23,137 nucleotides of DNA from a virus: IMG/VR virus record IMGVR_UViG_3300028590_000090, positions 1 through 23,137 of that record, one strand, 5' to 3'. Both the position numbers and the translations under genes were made by a program. The notes under the pieces were generated by a model that saw nothing but the letters and a program-made list of their open reading frames with translations, ran no database searches and was not told the DNA's origin. Positions 4,035 through 23,137 of this stretch are shown piece by piece (the stretch's first letter is position 1; the number at the start of each line of letters is the position of its first letter).

Positions 4035-4477
4035 TGGCTCGTCCGACGGATTTCCAAGTCGAGTACATCGAGCAGGCTCGAAAGCTCTGCAAGCTCGGTG
4101 CCACGGACCAGGAGATCGCCGACTTCTTCGAGGTGTCGGCTCGTACGATCTACCGGTGGAAGGCCAGTCATGACGAGTTCTGTCAGGCCCTAAAAGCCGG
4201 GAAGGACGAAGCGGACGACCGCGTAGAGCGCAGTCTCTTCGCTCGAGCGAACGGCTACGAGCACGACGAAGTGGACATTCGCGTGATTGGTCAGGAGATC
4301 ATCCAGACGCCGATCCGCAAGTTCTATCCGCCTGACACGACGGCGGCGATCTTCTGGCTGAAGAACCGCCGCCCAGGCGAATGGCGAGACAAGCGGGAAA
4401 ACGAACTGACCGGTCCCAATGGCGGGCCGGTGCAGATCCAAGAGATTCGCCGCGTGGTGGTTGATCCGAAGGAATGA
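4034..4477 (+). CDS. terS: Terminase small subunit
   Basis: The product has 147 residues. An N-terminal helix-turn-helix (about 22-44, with GATDQEIADFFEVSARTIYRW) is the DNA-recognition domain typical of phage small terminases. A central helical region for oligomerisation follows, then a C-terminal tail containing WLKNRRPGEWRDK, a signature seen in many TerS proteins. It recognises the packaging site and recruits TerL. The start was set at the ATG overlapping the preceding stop; a longer in-frame extension to 3680 is only a shadow of the two small genes upstream. The stop is in an ATGA overlap with terL. Confidence 0.88.
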   Translation: MARPTDFQVEYIEQARKLCKLGATDQEIADFFEVSARTIYRWKASHDEFCQALKAGKDEADDRVERSLFARANGYEHDEVDIRVIGQEIIQTPIRKFYPPDTTAAIFWLKNRRPGEWRDKRENELTGPNGGPVQIQEIRRVVVDPKE

Positions 4478-5706
4478 GCCTCGACATCGAGACGCCCCGG
4501 TGGGCGGTTCCTCTTCTGGGGCCGGCTCGCTACAAGGGTGTTCACGGTGGGCGTGGGTCAGGCAAGTCGCACTTCTTCGCCGAGATGCTGGTTGAGCGAT
4601 CGATCATGGCGAAGACGGACATCGTGTGTGTCCGGGAGATTCAGAAGTCGCTCGATCAGTCGGTCAAGAAGCTGATCGAGTCGAAGATCGAAGCCCTGAA
4701 CGCAGGGTCGTACTTCGAGGTGCAGGACAAGAAGATCCACTCGTCCAAGGGCGGGTTGATCATCTTCCAGGGGATGCAGAACCACACGGCCGACTCGATC
4801 AAGTCGCTGGAGGGTTACGACATCCTGTGGGGCGAGGAAGCGCAGACGCTGAGTCAGCGCAGCCTTGACCTGATGCGCCCGACGATCCGCAAGCCAGGCT
4901 CTGAGCTGTGGTTCTCGTGGAACCCATCGCTTGAGAGTGACCCGGTAGACCAGTTGCTGCGCGGTGCTGAACCGCCGCCGGGTTCTGTGGTCGTTGAGGC
5001 GAACTACACGGACAACCCGTGGTTCCCTGATGTGCTGCAGGTCGAGATGGAATACGACCAGCGCCGGGACCCGGACAAGTACGTCCATGTTTGGAAGGGC
5101 GGATACCTGCGCAACAGTGAGTCGCGCGTGTTTCGCAACTGGAAGGTGGAAGAGTTCGAGCGGCCCGCTGGCACGGTTCACCGGCTGGGGGCCGACTGGG
5201 GCTTCTCGGTTGATCCGAGCGTGCTGGTTCGCTGCTCCATCGAGGGGAACATCCTCTACGTGGACTTCGAGGCCTACATGGTGGGCTGCGAGATCGTGAA
5301 CCTGCCCGAGCTGTTCATGTCGGTGCCTGAGTCTGAGAAGTGGCCGATTACGGCAGACAGCGCTCGGCCCGAGACGATCAGCCACATGAGGAAGAACGGC
5401 TTCCCCAAGATCATGAGCGCCGTGAAGGGTGCAAAGAGTCTGGAAGAGGGCGTCGAGTGGCTGAAGAGCTTCGACATCGTGGCGCATCCACGCTGCAAGC
5501 ACCTCATCGACGAACTGACGATGTATTCATACAAGACCGACGAGCTAACCGGCAAGGTGCTCCCGATCTTGAGCGACAAGGACAACCACGTGATTGACGC
5601 TCTGCGATACGCCTGCGAGGGCGCCCGTCGTGCTGGCAAGGCGCGCCCGGCCCAAGCGAAGACGGTCACGCGGCAGATGGGCATGGCAGGAGGGTGGCTC
5701 GGATGA
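4474..5706 (+). CDS. terL: Terminase large subunit (packaging ATPase/nuclease)
   Basis: The product has 410 residues and belongs to the PBSX-type TerL group. The ATPase domain has Walker A GGRGSGKS (25-32), Walker B YDILWGEEA (115-123, catalytic Glu121/122), and motif III LWFSWNP (about 145-151). The RNase H-like nuclease has GADWGF (Asp241), ITADSARPE (Asp295) and DKDNHVIDALRY (Asp374), the three metal-binding acidic positions. It translocates DNA into the procapsid at the portal and cuts the concatemer. The ATG at 4474 overlaps the terS stop by four bases. All catalytic motifs are intact. Confidence 0.96.
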   Translation: MSLDIETPRWAVPLLGPARYKGVHGGRGSGKSHFFAEMLVERSIMAKTDIVCVREIQKSLDQSVKKLIESKIEALNAGSYFEVQDKKIHSSKGGLIIFQGMQNHTADSIKSLEGYDILWGEEAQTLSQRSLDLMRPTIRKPGSELWFSWNPSLESDPVDQLLRGAEPPPGSVVVEANYTDNPWFPDVLQVEMEYDQRRDPDKYVHVWKGGYLRNSESRVFRNWKVEEFERPAGTVHRLGADWGFSVDPSVLVRCSIEGNILYVDFEAYMVGCEIVNLPELFMSVPESEKWPITADSARPETISHMRKNGFPKIMSAVKGAKSLEEGVEWLKSFDIVAHPRCKHLIDELTMYSYKTDELTGKVLPILSDKDNHVIDALRYACEGARRAGKARPAQAKTVTRQMGMAGGWLG

Positions 5707-6083
5707 AACTCGGCAAACGCGTCTTCGGTGCTGCCTCCTGCAAGCTGGGCCGCACGGTTCAGGTGCCGGAGAAGATGCGAGACGGCATCGTGGAGCTGTC
5801 CGCGCTGTTCTGCCCTGCTGCGCAACGGCGCGAGGGCTTCGCGACTGCACTGGTGGGTGAGATCTGCAACGAGGCCGACGAGGCTGGCAAGGTTCTCTTG
5901 CTCCACGTCGCCCCGTATGCCCCTGGTGGGCTCGACACCGCTCAACTGGCCGCTTGGTACGCCGACCGCTTCGGCTTCCAGCCCATCCAGGCTGAGCCGC
6001 TTCTGATGGCTCGCATGGTGGGTGCCACGCCTCGCCAATCGCTGAAACCGGTGGCCCATGCCGCCATTCAACTGACGAACTGA
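5703..6083 (+). CDS. GNAT-like acetyltransferase-fold protein
   Basis: The product has 126 residues, with its ATG in an ATGA overlap with terL. The GNAT motif A is recognisable: R42-R-E-G-F-A-T-A-L matches the R/Q-x2-G-x-G/A acetyl-CoA pyrophosphate loop followed by a helix, and the strand VLLLHVAP precedes the C-terminal AAWYADRFGFQPI (motif B, with the usual Tyr then GF). The protein is shorter than most GNAT enzymes (about 140-160), mainly at the N-terminus. The substrate is unknown. Insertion of such a gene between terL and portal is a known type of phage accessory insertion; it could modify a virion or host protein. Confidence 0.75.
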   Translation: MKLGKRVFGAASCKLGRTVQVPEKMRDGIVELSALFCPAAQRREGFATALVGEICNEADEAGKVLLLHVAPYAPGGLDTAQLAAWYADRFGFQPIQAEPLLMARMVGATPRQSLKPVAHAAIQLTN

Positions 6084-8254
6084 TGAACGACATCGACAGC
6101 CCCGACGACAAGCCCGCAAAGGGCTCGGACGACGAGGCGATCATTGCCGAGGCTGTCAAGTTCCTGTCCGATACAGCCTCGTCCGAGTCGGAGAATCGCT
6201 CCGAGGGTCTGGATGACCTGTGGTTCTTGCAGGGTGCCGGTCAGTGGCCCGCACAGATCAAGGCGATGCGCCAGGCTGAAGGCCGTCCGTGCCTGACGAT
6301 CAACACGCTGCCTGCGATGACGCACCAGGTCACGAACGACCTGCGCCAGAACAAGCCGTCGATCAAGGTTCACCCAGTGGACGACGACGCGGACGTGAAG
6401 ACGGCCGAGGTGATGCAGGGCCTGATCCGGCACATCGAGTACGACAGCAATGCAGAGGTGGCGATTGTCACCGCGGCGACCTACGCAACGGCGTGCGGTG
6501 CCGGGTACTTCGAGCTGATCACGGACTACGAGAGCGAAACCTCGTTCGATCAGGTCATCAAGTTCCAGCGCATCCGCAACCCGTTCACGGTCTACATGGG
6601 GTTCCACATCCAGCCGGATGGGAGCGACATGAAGAAGTGCATGATCGTGGACGACATGCCGAAGGTTGATTTCAAGGCAGAGTTCCCGAAGGCTGACGCG
6701 GGCGATGGATTCCAGACTGGCATTGGCAACAGTGCCCCGGGCTGGATGGACGGCAACATGGTCCGCGTGGCTCGGTACTTCCGCATCGAATGCGAGTACG
6801 AGACGCTGTGCCTGTTGGAAGACGGCAGCGCGGTGTTCAAGAGCGAGCTTCCCGAAGGCGCTGTGGTCATCAAGGAGCGCAAGTCAGAGCGCCGCAAGGT
6901 GATGGTCTACAAGCTGACCGCCTGCGAGATCCTGGAGCGCACCGAGATCGCGTGCAACTGGATCCCGGTGTTCCCGATCTACGGGGACGAGCTTGACATC
7001 AACGGCAAGGTGTTCCGCTCTGGCCTGATCCGGCACTCGAAGGATCCGGCCCGGATGTACAACTTCTGGATGACGAGCGCGACCGAGGAAGTGTCGCTGC
7101 GTCCGAAGACGCCGTACATCGGGGCTGAGGGGCAGTTCGAGGGCTACGAGGGCGAATGGGGCAGCGCAAACCGCGTGTCGCATGCGTTCCTGCAGTACAA
7201 GCCGGTGAGCCTGGATGGTTCTCTTGCGCCTGCGCCGCAACGCCAGCCGATGGCCGATGTGCCGTCGGGCGTGCTGGCGATGGCTGGTCATGCTCGCGAG
7301 AACATCAAGGCCACGATGGGCCTGTTTGACGCCTCGTTGGGAGCTCGCGGCACGGCAACGTCCGGGAAGCAGGAGCTCGCCCAGCAGCGCGAAGGCGACA
7401 CGGCCCAGTTCCACTACCAGGACAACGCCAACATCACGCTTCGCCACGCTGGCCGGTGCCTGCTGTGGATGATCCCGCGCTACTACGACACCCCGCGTGC
7501 GATCCGCATCCTGGGTGAGGACGAGAAGCCGGGTTCGGCCAAGATCAACCAGGAATTCGAGACGGGCAAGGTCGATCCCGAGACGCAGGCTGTGGAAACG
7601 GCCATGCACGACCTGACCGTGGGCGAGTACGACTGCACGATCACGAGCGGCCCGAGTTACACCACGATGCGCCAGGAGGCTGCGGCTTCCATGGCCTCGA
7701 TTGCGCAGTCCTGGCCCAAGATCATGGACGTGGCGGGCGACAAGTTCGTCTCTGCCATGGACTGGCCGGGGGCTGACGAGATCGCCAAGCGCATCAAGCG
7801 CACGATCCCGCCCGAGATCGTGGGTGACGAGGACGGCAACACGCCTGCGCCGATGGTTCAGACTCCGAACGGTCCGGTTCCTGTTGAGCAAGCCTCTCAG
7901 ATGATGGCCCAGATGGATCAGGGCCTGAAGGAGATGAGCCAGCAGCTTGAGGAAGCCACGAGCGGCATCGAGAAGGCCAAGATCGACGGTCAGTTCAAGG
8001 TGGAGGTCGCAGAGATCAACGCCCGGTCCAAGCAGGACGTGGAAGAACTGAAGGGGATGATCCAGATCCTCATTCAGAAGATGCAGCCCCCTCCAATGCT
8101 CGTCGCCGACGCGATGGTCGAAGGGAAGGCCGGAGAGGCCCCGCCAAGCGCTCAATCAGAGCCGCCGCCGCAGATGGCCGCACCCGAACAAACAGAACCC
8201 GCTCCGGCGGGTTTTTCTTTGCCTGAACAGCAAAGCCAGCAGCCCTTCGGCTGA
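6083..8254 (+). CDS. Portal protein, P22 gp1 family
   Basis: The product has 723 residues, almost the length of P22 gp1 (725). The portal dodecamer is the DNA entry/exit ring at the capsid vertex, binding TerL during packaging and gp4-type proteins afterwards. N-terminal features include LWFLQGAGQWPAQIKAMRQAEGRPCLTINTLPAMTHQVTNDLRQNKPSIKVHPVDDDA, a highly typical start of this family. A long C-terminal helical/coiled region (about 600-680) leads into a Pro/Gln-rich tail. The ATG overlaps the previous stop by one base. The last 20 codons contain an intrinsic terminator hairpin. Confidence 0.95.
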   Translation: MNDIDSPDDKPAKGSDDEAIIAEAVKFLSDTASSESENRSEGLDDLWFLQGAGQWPAQIKAMRQAEGRPCLTINTLPAMTHQVTNDLRQNKPSIKVHPVDDDADVKTAEVMQGLIRHIEYDSNAEVAIVTAATYATACGAGYFELITDYESETSFDQVIKFQRIRNPFTVYMGFHIQPDGSDMKKCMIVDDMPKVDFKAEFPKADAGDGFQTGIGNSAPGWMDGNMVRVARYFRIECEYETLCLLEDGSAVFKSELPEGAVVIKERKSERRKVMVYKLTACEILERTEIACNWIPVFPIYGDELDINGKVFRSGLIRHSKDPARMYNFWMTSATEEVSLRPKTPYIGAEGQFEGYEGEWGSANRVSHAFLQYKPVSLDGSLAPAPQRQPMADVPSGVLAMAGHARENIKATMGLFDASLGARGTATSGKQELAQQREGDTAQFHYQDNANITLRHAGRCLLWMIPRYYDTPRAIRILGEDEKPGSAKINQEFETGKVDPETQAVETAMHDLTVGEYDCTITSGPSYTTMRQEAAASMASIAQSWPKIMDVAGDKFVSAMDWPGADEIAKRIKRTIPPEIVGDEDGNTPAPMVQTPNGPVPVEQASQMMAQMDQGLKEMSQQLEEATSGIEKAKIDGQFKVEVAEINARSKQDVEELKGMIQILIQKMQPPPMLVADAMVEGKAGEAPPSAQSEPPPQMAAPEQTEPAPAGFSLPEQQSQQPFG
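8196..8216 (+). terminator. Intrinsic terminator inside the 3' end of the portal gene
   Basis: AACCCGC (8196-8202), loop TCCG, GCGGGTT (8207-8213), then TTTTT gives a 7-bp GC-rich stem with a uridine tract. It lies entirely within the portal reading frame, about 40 bases before its stop. It encodes the PAPAGF segment of the tail. It would stop or reduce transcription unless antitermination occurs. Confidence 0.7.
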
Positions 8255-8346
8255 CCAATCACGCCCCGCCACAGTCCCGGCGGAATCAGGCGCAAGAGGG
8301 CGAACAACTCATACCGGCTGAGTGAGCCCGGGCCTCAATACGTGGG

Positions 8347-9195
8347 ATGACCATGCCTGAAGAAATCGTGAGTGAGCAACCTGTTCCCGTTGTGCTCGAG
8401 CCGCAAGCTCCGGCAACTGTCGAGGCTCCGGCCGCGCCTGTCGAGGACAAGGAAGCTCCGGTCAAGGAAGAAGGTGCGGAACCTGAAGCGGACGACGGAC
8501 AGCCCCGAGATGAAAAGGGCAAGTTCAAGTCGCCGACGCAGGCCCGCATGGACGAACTGACGCGCGCCCGGCGTGAAGCTGAGCGTGAAGCCGCCTTCTG
8601 GCGTGCTCGTGCGAATCCCGAAAAGACTGTTGAGCCGGCCCCTAAGCCGACTGCGGACAAGTTCGAGAACTACGACGAGTTCACCGAGGCGCTGACGGAC
8701 TGGAAAGCGGAACAGGCAGTCGCCAAGGCCCTCAAGGCCCGCGACACCGAGACCGCTCAATCCGCTGAGCAACGCGCCCAGCAAACGAAGGCCGAAACCT
8801 TCGCTGAGCGCATGGAGCAAGCCAAATCTGTGATCACCGACTTCGATTCCGTCGTCGGTGCCGCGGATGTCCCGGTCGCAAAGCACGTCGAGGAGGCCAT
8901 CCTCGAAAGTGCCAAGGGGCCGGAGCTGCTCTACCACCTTGCGAAGCACCCGGAACTGGCCGAGCGCCTGTCCGGCATGTCCGTCCGTGAGGCTGATCGG
9001 GAGATCGGCCGCATCGAAGCGTCTCTCGGCTCGTCCAAGCCTGCTCCCGTGACCAAACCCGCAAGCAATGCACCGGCGCCGATGCGCCCGACAGGACGGA
9101 ACGCGGCCACTTCGGTCACGTCCGACCCCGCCAAGATGGGCCACGACGAGTTTCGTGTGTGGGCCAAGCAAAACGGGTCCCGTTGGGTGAAGTAG
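8347..9195 (+). CDS. Scaffolding protein
   Basis: The product has 282 residues, highly charged and Glu/Ala/Lys-rich. The N-terminal 60 residues are acidic and disordered (Pro/Glu repeats), then a KGKFKSPTQARMDELTRARREAEREAAFWRARAN block, a long coiled region (about 105-160), and a basic C-terminal end (FRVWAKQNGSRWVK) suited to binding coat protein. Such composition, and position between portal and coat, match P22 gp8-type scaffolds, which direct procapsid assembly and then leave. Two starts are possible, ATG 8347 or ATG 8353; the GGG at 8344 fits the second slightly better. Confidence 0.85.
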   Translation: MTMPEEIVSEQPVPVVLEPQAPATVEAPAAPVEDKEAPVKEEGAEPEADDGQPRDEKGKFKSPTQARMDELTRARREAEREAAFWRARANPEKTVEPAPKPTADKFENYDEFTEALTDWKAEQAVAKALKARDTETAQSAEQRAQQTKAETFAERMEQAKSVITDFDSVVGAADVPVAKHVEEAILESAKGPELLYHLAKHPELAERLSGMSVREADREIGRIEASLGSSKPAPVTKPASNAPAPMRPTGRNAATSVTSDPAKMGHDEFRVWAKQNGSRWVK

Positions 9196-9216
9196 GCGAA
9201 ACGCGGAAACGAACTG

Positions 9217-9239
9217 AACCGGCTGAGGCCGGTTTTTTT
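9217..9239 (+). terminator. Intrinsic terminator between scaffold and coat genes
   Basis: AACCGGC (9217-9223), loop TGAG, GCCGGTT (9228-9234), followed by an uninterrupted run of seven T. This is the most canonical terminator in the window. Confidence 0.85.
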
Positions 9240-9271
9240 ACGCCCGCTCATCCCTATCCACGAGGTTTGAA

Positions 9272-10492
9272 ATGAGCAACACCCTTGTCACCTGTTCCAT
9301 CGTCGCAAAGTCGGCGCTGGCCATCCTGGAAAACATGCTGACGTTCTCTCGAGACGTCAACCGCAAGTGGGAAGACGAGTTCACGAGCAATATGTCTCGT
9401 GGCTACGCCCCCGGCCAGACCATCAACATCAAGCGCCCCCCGCGCTACACGTACCGTGCCGGTCGTGTCGCGGTCCCGCAATCGACCGTCGAAACCACGG
9501 TGCCGCTGACCCTCTCGCAGGGCGGTTGCGATCTGAACTTCACCAGCATCGAGCGCACCCTGTCGCTGACGCAACTGGAGGACAAGATCCAAGCGGCGCT
9601 GGCGACGGTGGCGAACGAGATCGACCGTCAGGGCCTGCAGATGGCCCGCTTCGCCACGTACAACACGCTGAACGCTGCCGGCGTGGTCCCGACCACGCAG
9701 GATCTGGCCGTGGGTGCGATCACGGACATCCAGCGCCGCTTGGACGACATGGCCGCCCCGCGCAAGGACAACGGGCGCTCGCTGATCATGAACCCGGCGC
9801 TGAACGCCGGCCTGCTCCGCGGCTTCGCCGGCATGTTCAACAACAGCGGCCAGCTCGACAAGCAGTACAAGAACGGCCTGTTCCAGAACGCCTTCGGCAT
9901 CGACCCGGGCATGGACCAGAACGTGGACGTGCACACCAACGGTGCGGCCACCGCGACCAACATCAACGGCGCGAACCAGACCGGCTCGACGATCACCGTT
10001 GCGGCTGTCGCTGGCGGCACGCTGACCCGCGGCACCACGATCACGCTCCCGGGCGTCTTCGCGGTGAACCCGCAGTCGCGTCAATCGACCGGCGTGCTGG
10101 CGAACTTCATCGTCACGGCCGACGTGCTGGTGGGTGCGACCTCGATCCCCATCAGCCCGGCCATCGTCCCGAGCGGCGCGTTCCAGAACGTCACCGCCTC
10201 GCCGACGACCGCGCAGCCGTACGTGATCCAGGGTGCGGCCTCCACGTCGTACGCCGCGAACATCGGCTACCACAAGGACGCCTTCACCCTGGCCATGGTG
10301 CCGATGTGGGCCCCCCCGGGTGGCAAGGGCGTGATCGACGTGGCGCAGGAGACCTACAAGGGCTTCACGATCAAGGTCACCGAGGGCTACGACCTGACCA
10401 ACGACAACAGCATCATGCGTCTCGATGTGCTGTTCGGTTGGGCCGCCACGTACCCCGAGCTCGCCACGCAGTACCGCACCGTCCTGAGCTGA
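9272..10492 (+). CDS. Major capsid (coat) protein, P22 gp5 family
   Basis: The product has 406 residues (P22 gp5: 430). It has the HK97-like coat fold of the P22 group: N-terminal helix (LAILENMLTFSRDVNRKWEDEF), the GQTINIKRPPRYTYR strand region typical of this family, a helical spine (LEDKIQAALATVANEIDRQGLQMARFATYNTL), and a Thr/Gly/Val-rich beta region (about 215-320) where P22 has its I-domain. The C-terminal GFTIKVTEGYDLTNDNSIMRLDVLFGWAATYPELATQY block is also characteristic. The ATG at 9272 is preceded by GAGG. Terminators flank it on both sides, suggesting separate control of coat level. Confidence 0.95.
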   Translation: MSNTLVTCSIVAKSALAILENMLTFSRDVNRKWEDEFTSNMSRGYAPGQTINIKRPPRYTYRAGRVAVPQSTVETTVPLTLSQGGCDLNFTSIERTLSLTQLEDKIQAALATVANEIDRQGLQMARFATYNTLNAAGVVPTTQDLAVGAITDIQRRLDDMAAPRKDNGRSLIMNPALNAGLLRGFAGMFNNSGQLDKQYKNGLFQNAFGIDPGMDQNVDVHTNGAATATNINGANQTGSTITVAAVAGGTLTRGTTITLPGVFAVNPQSRQSTGVLANFIVTADVLVGATSIPISPAIVPSGAFQNVTASPTTAQPYVIQGAASTSYAANIGYHKDAFTLAMVPMWAPPGGKGVIDVAQETYKGFTIKVTEGYDLTNDNSIMRLDVLFGWAATYPELATQYRTVLS

Positions 10493-22508: not shown

Positions 22509-22611
22509 CCCGTCCATGGGCGGGCTGCTGCTGTGGGCGCAGTACGTGGCGGGGCAGTACGGTGCCTGCGCCTGCTCGGCTGGCGTGAAGGTTGCCTGCG
22601 CACAGAAGTGA
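22375..22611 (+). CDS. Rz1: Rz1-like outer-membrane spanin lipoprotein, overlapping Rz
   Basis: The product has 78 residues in the +1 frame relative to Rz, starting at GTG 22375 inside Rz and ending 103 bases beyond it. A short signal peptide with lipobox-like FCAC (Cys18) precedes a proline-rich stretch (TPPRALPPQPQP), the hallmark of Rz1. GGAGAG (22361-22366) is a usable ribosome-binding site. The mature part carries extra cysteines near the C-terminus. The staggered Rz/Rz1 overlap is a classic arrangement. Confidence 0.82.
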   Translation: MKFHTLSIAACSLTFCACSTPPRALPPQPQPLVVANCPLLAPLADPSMGGLLLWAQYVAGQYGACACSAGVKVACAQK

Positions 22612-22619
22612 AGATGGTG

Positions 22620-22641
22620 GCCGGTGCTGATCTCCGGCTTT
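22620..22641 (+). terminator. Weak terminator after the lysis cassette
   Basis: GCCGG (22620-22624), a nine-base loop, CCGGC (22634-22638), then TTT. The stem is short and the T run minimal, so it may only slow polymerase. Confidence 0.4.
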
Positions 22642-22647
22642 CAAACT

Positions 22648-22716
22648 GAGCGGGCGAGGGTATCGAACCCTCTGCGCAAACGTCGTTGTGCTGCGCCATT
22701 TCCGATTTTGCCCACC
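22648..22716 (-). ncRNA. tRNA-like three-way junction (not a standard tRNA)
   Basis: Read on the minus strand, GGTGGGC (22716-22710) can pair with GCCCGCT (22655-22649) as a 7-bp closing stem with two G-U pairs. A T-arm-like hairpin (GAGGG, loop TTCGATA, CCCTC; 22672-22656) abuts the closing stem exactly as in a tRNA. A central hairpin (GCGCA 22696-22692 with TGCGC 22678-22674) takes the place of the D and anticodon arms. There is no canonical anticodon loop and no CCA end. It could be a tRNA remnant, a tRNA-like RNA domain, or chance. Confidence 0.35.
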
Positions 22717-22727
22717 GGAACCCGGTG
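22713..22727. other. Perfect 6-bp hairpin
   Basis: CACCGG, loop AAC, CCGGTG. It shares bases with the closing stem of the tRNA-like junction (22710-22716), so the two structures are mutually exclusive and could form a switch. Confidence 0.4.
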
Positions 22728-22739
22728 ACGAGCCTAAGC

Positions 22740-22755
22740 GCGCATCAGCCTGCGC
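22740..22755. other. 5-bp hairpin in the noncoding stretch
   Basis: GCGCA (22740-22744), loop TCAGCC, TGCGC (22751-22755). The same stem sequence, GCGCA/TGCGC, also occurs at 22674-22696. Confidence 0.35.
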
Positions 22756-22760
22756 ATTCA

Positions 22761-22866
22761 CCATCAAGAGTGCAAACGTCCGGGGCGACGATGTGAGTTG
22801 CAAAACGTCGGACTGACACGTCCGTCACACCTTTGCTGATCCGCGCTCCGTTCGCACTCCTGATGG
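22761..22866 (-). repeat. 18-bp inverted repeat, candidate long RNA stem
   Basis: CCATCAAGAGTGCAAACG (22761-22778) and CGTTCGCACTCCTGATGG (22849-22866) are inverted copies matching at 16 of 18 positions. Both mismatches become G-U pairs if the minus strand is transcribed but are A-C clashes on the plus strand, so an uninterrupted 18-bp helix forms only in minus-strand RNA. Inside are smaller nested stems (GTGTGA with TCACAT; CGGAC with GTCCG). Confidence 0.6.
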
Positions 22867-22928
22867 CCCCGGTCTTTCGCCCAGGCTGCCCCTCTACGCT
22901 TGGGGTGGCGACCAAAGCCGGCGGGGCC
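22865..22928. repeat. 64-base imperfect hairpin next to the inverted repeat
   Basis: GGCCCC (22865-22870) pairs with GGGGCC (22923-22928). Going inward, GG pairs with CC, CTTT with AAAG, CGCC with GGCG, and CCCC (22889-22892) with GGGG (22902-22905), for about 20 pairs with small bulges and a nine-base terminal loop. It directly abuts the 18-bp inverted repeat. Confidence 0.5.
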
Positions 22929-22945
22929 GGAGGCGGTGCAAGTCT

Positions 22946-22959
22946 ACCAGCGATCTGGT
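22946..22959. other. 5-bp tetraloop hairpin
   Basis: ACCAG, loop CGAT, CTGGT. Flanking TCT and AGA (22943-22945 and 22966-22968) can extend it past a bulge. Confidence 0.35.
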
Positions 22960-22977
22960 CCCGCTAGATTCCCGCTC

Positions 22978-23034
22978 GCCGTGCTGCAGGCCGCGCCAGT
23001 GCTCGAATGAGAGTCCGACCCGGGGCACCACGGC
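22978..23034. other. Possible larger stem near the window end
   Basis: GCCGTG (22978-22983) pairs with CACGGC (23029-23034), and GTGC (22999-23002) with GCAC (23025-23028), the right-hand halves being contiguous. A TCG/CGA pair extends inside. High G+C makes such stems likely by chance, so support is weak. Confidence 0.25.
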
Positions 23035-23137
23035 ACGCCGCCGCACCTTTTCTTTCCCGCATACCCTCGTCGCCACCCGGGTTCCACCGGAGACCGTCTC
23101 CGCGCGCCTGGTTCATGATGGAGCCATCCATCCATGG

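Follow-up and report, generated by a model that had tools for sequence, protein, structure and literature searches.

The minus strand of the window, the 23,137-nucleotide stretch of viral DNA analysed here, is almost certain to encode a conserved structured RNA. It represents an RNA family whose existence is near certain and whose function is a matter of inference. Comparison with relatives shows that the RNA has a core, made of stem P1 and hairpins A and B, whose loops are complementary, and that the long stem P2 provides a 5′ domain. It also reveals two hypervariable slots, one (cargo 1) inside P2 and the other (cargo 2) separating the hairpins, and the exchange of modules between copies. 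Judged by sequence matches, the RNA is carried by prophages or phage-plasmids in roughly a quarter of Escherichia coli genomes. The family and its architecture appear to be new, and the RNA is apparently undescribed.

Anatomy and setting of the window copy

The sequence-only reading had placed a structured noncoding RNA of 300 bases or more at 22612-22930. When the boundaries were re-drawn by comparison, the 3′ end was retained, the 5′ end proved to be ~45 nt too long, and the length was reduced to about 275 nt. The parts of this copy are listed below, with the evidence for each in brackets.

~22885 to 22613, minus strand: the element as a whole, ~275 nt (boundaries from comparison)
22868..22885, minus strand: P0, a small 5′ hairpin, CCUGG-GCGAAAGA-CCGGG (hairpin counts in relatives)
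22849..22866, minus strand: P2 5′ strand, CCAUCAGGAGUGCGAACG, the outer CCAUC being X_up (inverted repeat and family-wide tests)
22779..22848, minus strand: cargo 1, hypervariable slot within P2, 70 nt (comparison of relatives)
22761..22778, minus strand: P2 3′ strand, CGUUUGCACUCUUGAUGG (inverted repeat and stem scan in relatives)
22760..22765, minus strand: X′, stem P1 5′ strand, GAUGGU (common to P2, with X_up, and P1, with X_down)
22756..22759, minus strand: conserved linker GAAU (alignment)
22740..22755, minus strand: hairpin A, GCGC-AGGCUGAU-GCGC, at the D-arm position (shared block and covariation)
22639..22739, minus strand: cargo 2, hypervariable slot between hairpins A and B, 101 nt (7-179 nt in relatives)
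22649..22716, minus strand: mini tRNA-like fold inside cargo 2, particular to the window copy (sequence)
22620..22638, minus strand: hairpin B, GCCGG-AGAUCAGCA-CCGGC, at the T-arm position (shared block and covariation)
22613..22618, minus strand: X_down, stem P1 3′ strand, ACCAUC (pairing statistics and covariation)

The 18-bp inverted repeat (22761-22778 / 22849-22866), whose two imperfections had been described as G-U pairs on the minus strand only, was recovered with 16 Watson-Crick pairs and the remaining two positions G-U on that strand. The tRNA-like closing stem for which two more minus-only G-U pairs had been claimed is also present, and is the acceptor-like stem (GGUGGGC/GCCCGCU, minus 22716-22710 / 22655-22649) of the mini tRNA-like fold, which further contains a hairpin GCGCA..UGCGC and a perfect T-arm GAGGG-UUCGAUA-CCCUC (minus 22672-22656) and is without a D-arm. 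As evidence these wobble-bearing stems pointed to the right strand, but they lie in variable parts of the element, and the conserved A/B/P1 core had gone unnoticed. The location after lysis genes was confirmed: the stretch follows an endolysin (PHROG_894, E=3e-38) and overlapping ORFs of spanin-like layout, and the lysis genes and the minus-strand RNA are convergent. No promoter or terminator of the window copy was found by consensus, and the promoter may be missing because the contig ends only ~250 nt upstream of the RNA. The phage is distant from those on record, so that local synteny could not be compared with a close relative. Elsewhere in the window (4474-10492) a terminase matching that of Xanthomonas phage PBR31 at ~75 % and a P22-type coat region were observed. 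Folding energy relative to shuffles (z of -2.11 for the minus and -2.07 for the plus strand) was abandoned as evidence because both strands fold equally well; the comparison with relatives, through shared blocks and the recurrence of P2, is stronger.

Covariation, shared strands and orientation

A sensitive search of phage records with positions 22600-23137 returned 167 records with two short blocks in common, both inside 22612-22930, and nothing else. On the minus strand these blocks are GGUGAAUGCGCAGGCUGAUGCGC and AAGCCGGAGAUCAGCACCGGCCACC, and the sequence between and upstream of them is unrelated and variable in length in the relatives. The same order of parts was found in 277 copies: P0, P2 around cargo 1, stem P1, GAAU, hairpin A, cargo 2 (7-179 nt), hairpin B and the 3′ strand of stem P1. 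Hairpin A has 4 bp and the loop AGGCUGAU, hairpin B has 5 bp and the loop AGAUCAGCA, and the GCUGAU of the former loop is complementary to the AUCAGC of the latter over six bases.

Covariation among relatives, proposed as a check by the sequence-only reading, was detected. For the whole structure in 51 diverse cores the score was 0.310, compared with 0.120 (sd 0.007) for shuffled alignments (0/500), and it was ≤0.119 when the structure was slid; changes on both sides were seen in 12 of the 22 pairs. The inner pairs of stem P1 were 97.1 % paired in 190 cores, against 77.5 % with partners permuted, and were represented by 56 distinct strand pairs. The contact between the loops of hairpins A and B is nearly invariant apart from its first pair, which is G-U in 13/190 cores, and from compensatory changes in P7 (AGACUGAU with AGAUUCAGUA) and L320 (AGGUCGAU with AGUUCGACA). 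Because its middle four pairs hardly vary, the kissing interaction rests on complementarity, the G-U variants and these two compensatory cases. Further core types in the same frame and without the A/B kissing pair, such as AUGAAGUGCAGCUC..AGAUAAGCA and GAAUGCGGCUAAGCGC..CACCCGG, were observed in L302 (4160-4275, 4640-4840), L309 (2590-2650, 3080-3205) and L376, and are possibly other elbow designs.

In relatives, P2 is formed by unrelated sequence in the same place, with a stem score ≥11 in 132/241 copies and in 3/241 shuffled ones. X_up and X_down are direct repeats, alike beyond permuted expectation: pairing of ≥7 of 8 was obtained in 126/184 copies (permuted mean 64, max 78) and identity of ≥6 in 90 (permuted mean 41, max 54). 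The result is a three-strand overlap, in which the partners available to X′ upstream and downstream are identical. Stems P1 and P2 compete for X′, which serves both as the outer strand of P2 and as the 5′ strand of P1, and the window energies computed without the kissing contact (-119.6 kcal/mol for the P2 state, -115.7 kcal/mol for the P1 state) are ~4 kcal/mol apart. P0-like hairpins, with loops GAAAGA, GAAGAGA, GAGAGA and CGUAA, precede many relatives. A hairpin of ≥5 bp occupied the P0 position in 95/149 copies against 46 shuffled, and the loop motif was counted 60 times against 19, so that the putative status of P0 as a family-wide part has modest support.

Three asymmetries establish the minus strand of the window as the RNA strand. 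Across P1 and hairpins A and B in 190 distinct cores, 59 G-U pairs were counted on the modelled strand, as against 16 A-C combinations, which are G-U on the other strand. T-arms occurred in 18/251 cargo 1 sequences (shuffles 0.2, opposite strand 1) and 6/230 cargo 2 sequences (shuffles 0.1, opposite strand 0), or 24 against 1 by strand. Where a tRNA lay within 1 kb it was on the same strand in 38/40 copies; several such tRNAs begin 14-16 nt past hairpin B, and a few lie inside or directly touch the element. With the covarying stems, these counts bear out the earlier claim of a structured noncoding RNA on this strand.

Occurrence, module exchange and the tRNA-like slot

Scans of IMG/VR with each block identified at least 120 viral contigs. 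A one-genome-per-species set contained 80 contigs, chiefly gamma- and betaproteobacterial, a few bearing other titles; these include at least two CRISPR spacers and a few contigs without the second block, and ~75 are genome contigs. Among complete E. coli genomes, 1493/5426 have a match to the stem together with block A, some matches being chromosomal and others on plasmids of ~90-110 kb, and the commonest single module is present in 926. Among the E. coli matches listed, no PGAP annotation lay beneath the element, and a search of the K-12 Qin prophage did not find it. Four separate block A matches were seen on one chromosome of Pantoea sp. BAV 3049 (L233, L244, L277, L293). CRISPR arrays in Halomonas olivaria (L241 903-1495) and Candidatus Magnetaquicoccus (L292 ~2329-2536), with periods of 61 bp and 60 bp, include block A, letter for letter, as a spacer; the RNA gene has thus been sampled by CRISPR systems.

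The commonest PHROG families among upstream ORFs are CI-like repressors and Q-like antiterminators, and downstream ORFs belong to holins, endolysins, N-like proteins and terminase small subunits. In ~35 % of loci the first ORF downstream is oriented opposite to the element. No universal protein partner and no dominant recombinase family were found among the neighbour families, and the Ro family was not among the 25 most frequent (PHROGs may lack Ro, and an adjacent Ro/Rsr is the criterion for YrlA). In HK620 and related prophages the element lies between Q and the holin gene, in mEp460 it lies beside the repressor, and in P1, P7 and D6-type phages copies follow trnT in the tRNA cluster; these CI, Q-holin and tRNA-cluster sites are known accessory and immunity loci. 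The P1 and P7 copies are in the ban region controlled by C1 operators. In the P7 record an upstream C1-controlled operator controls the tRNA genes, and expression of the RNA alongside the tRNAs in the lytic phase is therefore likely, in the absence of expression data. In phage P1 (L309 2478-3047; NC_005856 69472-70041), the annotated genes plp and upl run antisense to the RNA copies and to the 3′ part of trnT, and may be spurious ORFs. An unannotated tRNA-Ser-like gene was observed immediately after a canonical copy in P7 (L310 ~1455-1545; AF503408).

The 244 distinct cargo 1 sequences fell into 209 clusters and the 232 distinct cargo 2 sequences into 196. Tandem copies are found in L036, L280, P1, P7 and P1-like plasmids, and exchange is traceable between copies: a 65-nt module in slot 1 of a P7 copy is 98 % identical to one in the core slot of the lambdoid prophage L307, and in phage P1 a slot 1 module is combined with a core which, in the P1-like plasmid L302, belong to successive tandem copies. 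L307 and another lambdoid prophage, L304, differ in their cores, although the flanking ~1 kb to either side is 97 % identical. Such swapping is compatible with an arms race, but also with the general mosaicism of phages. Cargo energies were only slightly below those of shuffles and did not identify the cargos as strongly folded domains. An exact search with the tRNA-like insert of the window copy gave no matches, because the insert belongs to the variable part. A recurrent cargo 1 submodule, stem-ACGGG-(N)UCAUAN-CCCAAUC-stem, with covarying outer stems, was noted in L030/L077 and in copies 3 and 4 of phage P1 (L309), and it resembles a CAU anticodon arm.

When the enterobacterial P2 stem was scanned for regardless of core, 110 distinct frames were obtained; the core was canonical in 48 and of another kind in 62. 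The other cores include a tRNA-Arg (L312, 68.6 bits to Rfam tRNA) and a tRNA-Gly (L370). In L333, L341, L360 and L421, X′/X_down serve as the acceptor stem and are followed by an AGCUCA-type D-arm, an anticodon domain that is enlarged and odd, and a canonical T-arm immediately next to X_down; the L341 core scored 46.4 bits against Rfam tRNA, though enlarged to 108 nt. A perfect T-arm was present in 8/34 other-core clusters, in four of them 0-1 nt before X_down. Cargo 1 is likewise a degenerate or complete tRNA in some relatives, as in Massilia sp. TS11 (L223 4464-4656), where slot 1 is a complete tRNA-Gly(UCC) without CCA, its acceptor stem merged into P2.

Since the same slot of sister elements is filled by real tRNAs, or by folds that resemble tRNA but have an aberrant anticodon domain, the core has the look of a tRNA scaffold of natural origin. 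The canonical layout, a closing stem of 7-8 bp, a 4-bp arm with an 8-nt loop and a 5-bp arm adjoining the closing stem, strongly suggests acceptor stem, D-arm and T-arm, with cargo 2 standing in place of the anticodon domain. The stem P1 domain is probably a tRNA-type scaffold, and folding of the canonical core like a tRNA in three dimensions is an inference. Recognisably tRNA-like cargos amount to only ~5-10 % (ARAGORN at an 85 % threshold, 14/242 against 1-2 shuffled) and anticodon-arm motifs were not enriched in cargos, so that "tRNA decoy" does not fit most modules. CCA after X_down was not consistent across copies. ARAGORN found no tRNA in the window, and at E≤10 the tRNA-like part of the window copy gave only a weak match to tRNA-Sec (16.3 bits, cut-off 47).

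Possible function and known RNAs

The favoured function is that of a phage RNA scaffold on which decoy or aptamer modules are shown, perhaps to counter host defences, to which a probability of about 0.4 is given, there being no transcript, partner or phenotype data. The scaffold would provide a stable, abundant RNA, and its exchangeable modules would be shown to host proteins as decoys or aptamers. The likeliest targets would be proteins of anti-phage defence systems, or else nucleases directed at tRNA and enzymes that handle it, and an arms race would explain the fast turnover and swapping of modules. This proposal is favoured because of the folded invariant part, the two display slots, the accessory loci and the module exchange; no defence system was tied to the element by any test made. 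More specifically, the elements could be a natural tRNA-scaffold display with a recombining module library in its two slots, each module a decoy for, or inhibitor of, a particular host defence or rival phage and the modules acting as exchangeable weapons made of RNA, a version that is put forward only tentatively.

Several other explanations share part of this evidence. A trans-acting regulator that base-pairs, through its variable loops, with RNAs of the host, a prophage or a rival phage would match the Q-holin location, which is also that of the Pas sRNAs, base-pairing RNAs that bear terminators (PMC13192938), and targets that change would account for cargos as variable as these. It is nevertheless unlikely, as stems enclose the cargos, what stays invariant is a folded core, there is no match to an Rfam sRNA family, and the window copy, unlike the Pas sRNAs, is without an intrinsic terminator with a U-tract (Hfq site). 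The tRNA-like layout, the slot shared with real tRNAs and the co-location with tRNAs could also reflect a tRNA mimic that targets translation or the metabolism of tRNA (ribosome, aminoacyl-tRNA synthetases, EF-Tu, RNase P) and would favour phage expression or host shut-off instead of being a defence decoy; the lack of a consistent CCA end or anticodon makes this doubtful, as does module sequence that is unconstrained, which is unexpected for a fixed translation target. ROOL and GOLLD, phage and prophage RNAs of unknown function, are often near tRNAs and have kissing loops and variable linkers (PMC12286853), features shared with the present element. A structural or multimeric RNA of their kind, with the cargo as a passenger, is improbable at ~275 nt, many GOLLD members exceeding 800 nt, with no Rfam match and with loop complementarity that lies within one molecule.

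A cis-acting element for neighbouring genes or tRNAs (a leader, an antiterminator such as HK022 put, or a processing signal) is also improbable. The position directly after the leader terminator in Q-holin loci (L304/L307), the spacing of 14-16 nt ahead of some tRNAs and the switch-like strand sharing of P1 and P2 are in its favour, but the opposite orientation of ~35 % of nearest downstream ORFs and the convergence of the window's lysis genes on the RNA are against it, and tandem copies with different cargo and whole-core exchange would not be expected. That several modules are decayed tRNA pieces raises the question of functionless degenerate tRNA genes or tRNA-array debris retained by recombination; this is very hard to maintain, being contradicted by covariation, since selection is required both for the compensatory changes seen in P1 and the two hairpins and for loops that are near-invariant across phyla. 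A recombination or cassette site acting as DNA and not as RNA would accord with the exchange of cores and cargos and with the X_up/X_down direct repeats, and has very little left to support it given the one-strand G-U excess, the strand-specific T-arms, the co-orientation of tRNAs and the absence of a dominant recombinase family among the neighbours.

Being unannotated in P1, P7, D6, HK620, mEp460 and about a quarter of E. coli genomes, the RNA would rank among the commonest undescribed phage RNAs. With its invariant tRNA-like carrier and its hypervariable, swappable modules, found in the immunity and moron loci of prophages, it would extend to RNA the range of anti-host and inter-phage weapons that are now seen as proteins. 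The question is open to direct test in laboratory strains, because the phage P1 copies lie in the C1-controlled ban region. Searches of the literature by sequence and keyword, which did not cover most subscription journals, found no description of the RNA, and an earlier description in a subscription journal or preprint is possible.

Among known RNAs, Rfam 15 gave no family for the window at gathering score, and only tRNAs for P1, P7, lambdoid and tandem relatives, so that the caution of the sequence-only reading in not assigning the RNA to GOLLD or ROOL was justified. A snoRNA-like sR1 hit in the window (20.6 bits, below the cut-off of 45, plus strand) was rejected. Like ROOL and GOLLD, in the latter of which the variable linkers sometimes hold tRNAs (PMC12286853), the new RNA was found in phages and prophages, often beside tRNAs. 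It differs from both in its unrelated sequence and structure, in having no Rfam match at gathering score, in its much smaller size and in its two hypervariable slots and tRNA-like layout. AgvB, AsxR, the Pas sRNAs and STnc100 share its moron location in lambdoid phages (PMC13192938). These sRNAs base-pair and have 3′ terminators, whereas the new RNA is a scaffold with a conserved folded core. With tRNA (RF00005) it has in common an acceptor-like P1, arms at the D- and T-arm positions and a loop-loop contact; this contact is made by ~6 Watson-Crick pairs instead of the elbow, variable modules replace the anticodon domain, no CCA is consistently present, and the window copy is not recognised by ARAGORN or Rfam. 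Other tRNA-like RNAs are tmRNA and the bacterial Y RNAs such as YrlA. In the recombinant tRNA scaffold of biotechnology, which is man-made, a foreign RNA replaces the anticodon arm for the sake of stability. The present RNA resembles that scaffold in its display at the place of the anticodon arm, and would be its natural counterpart.
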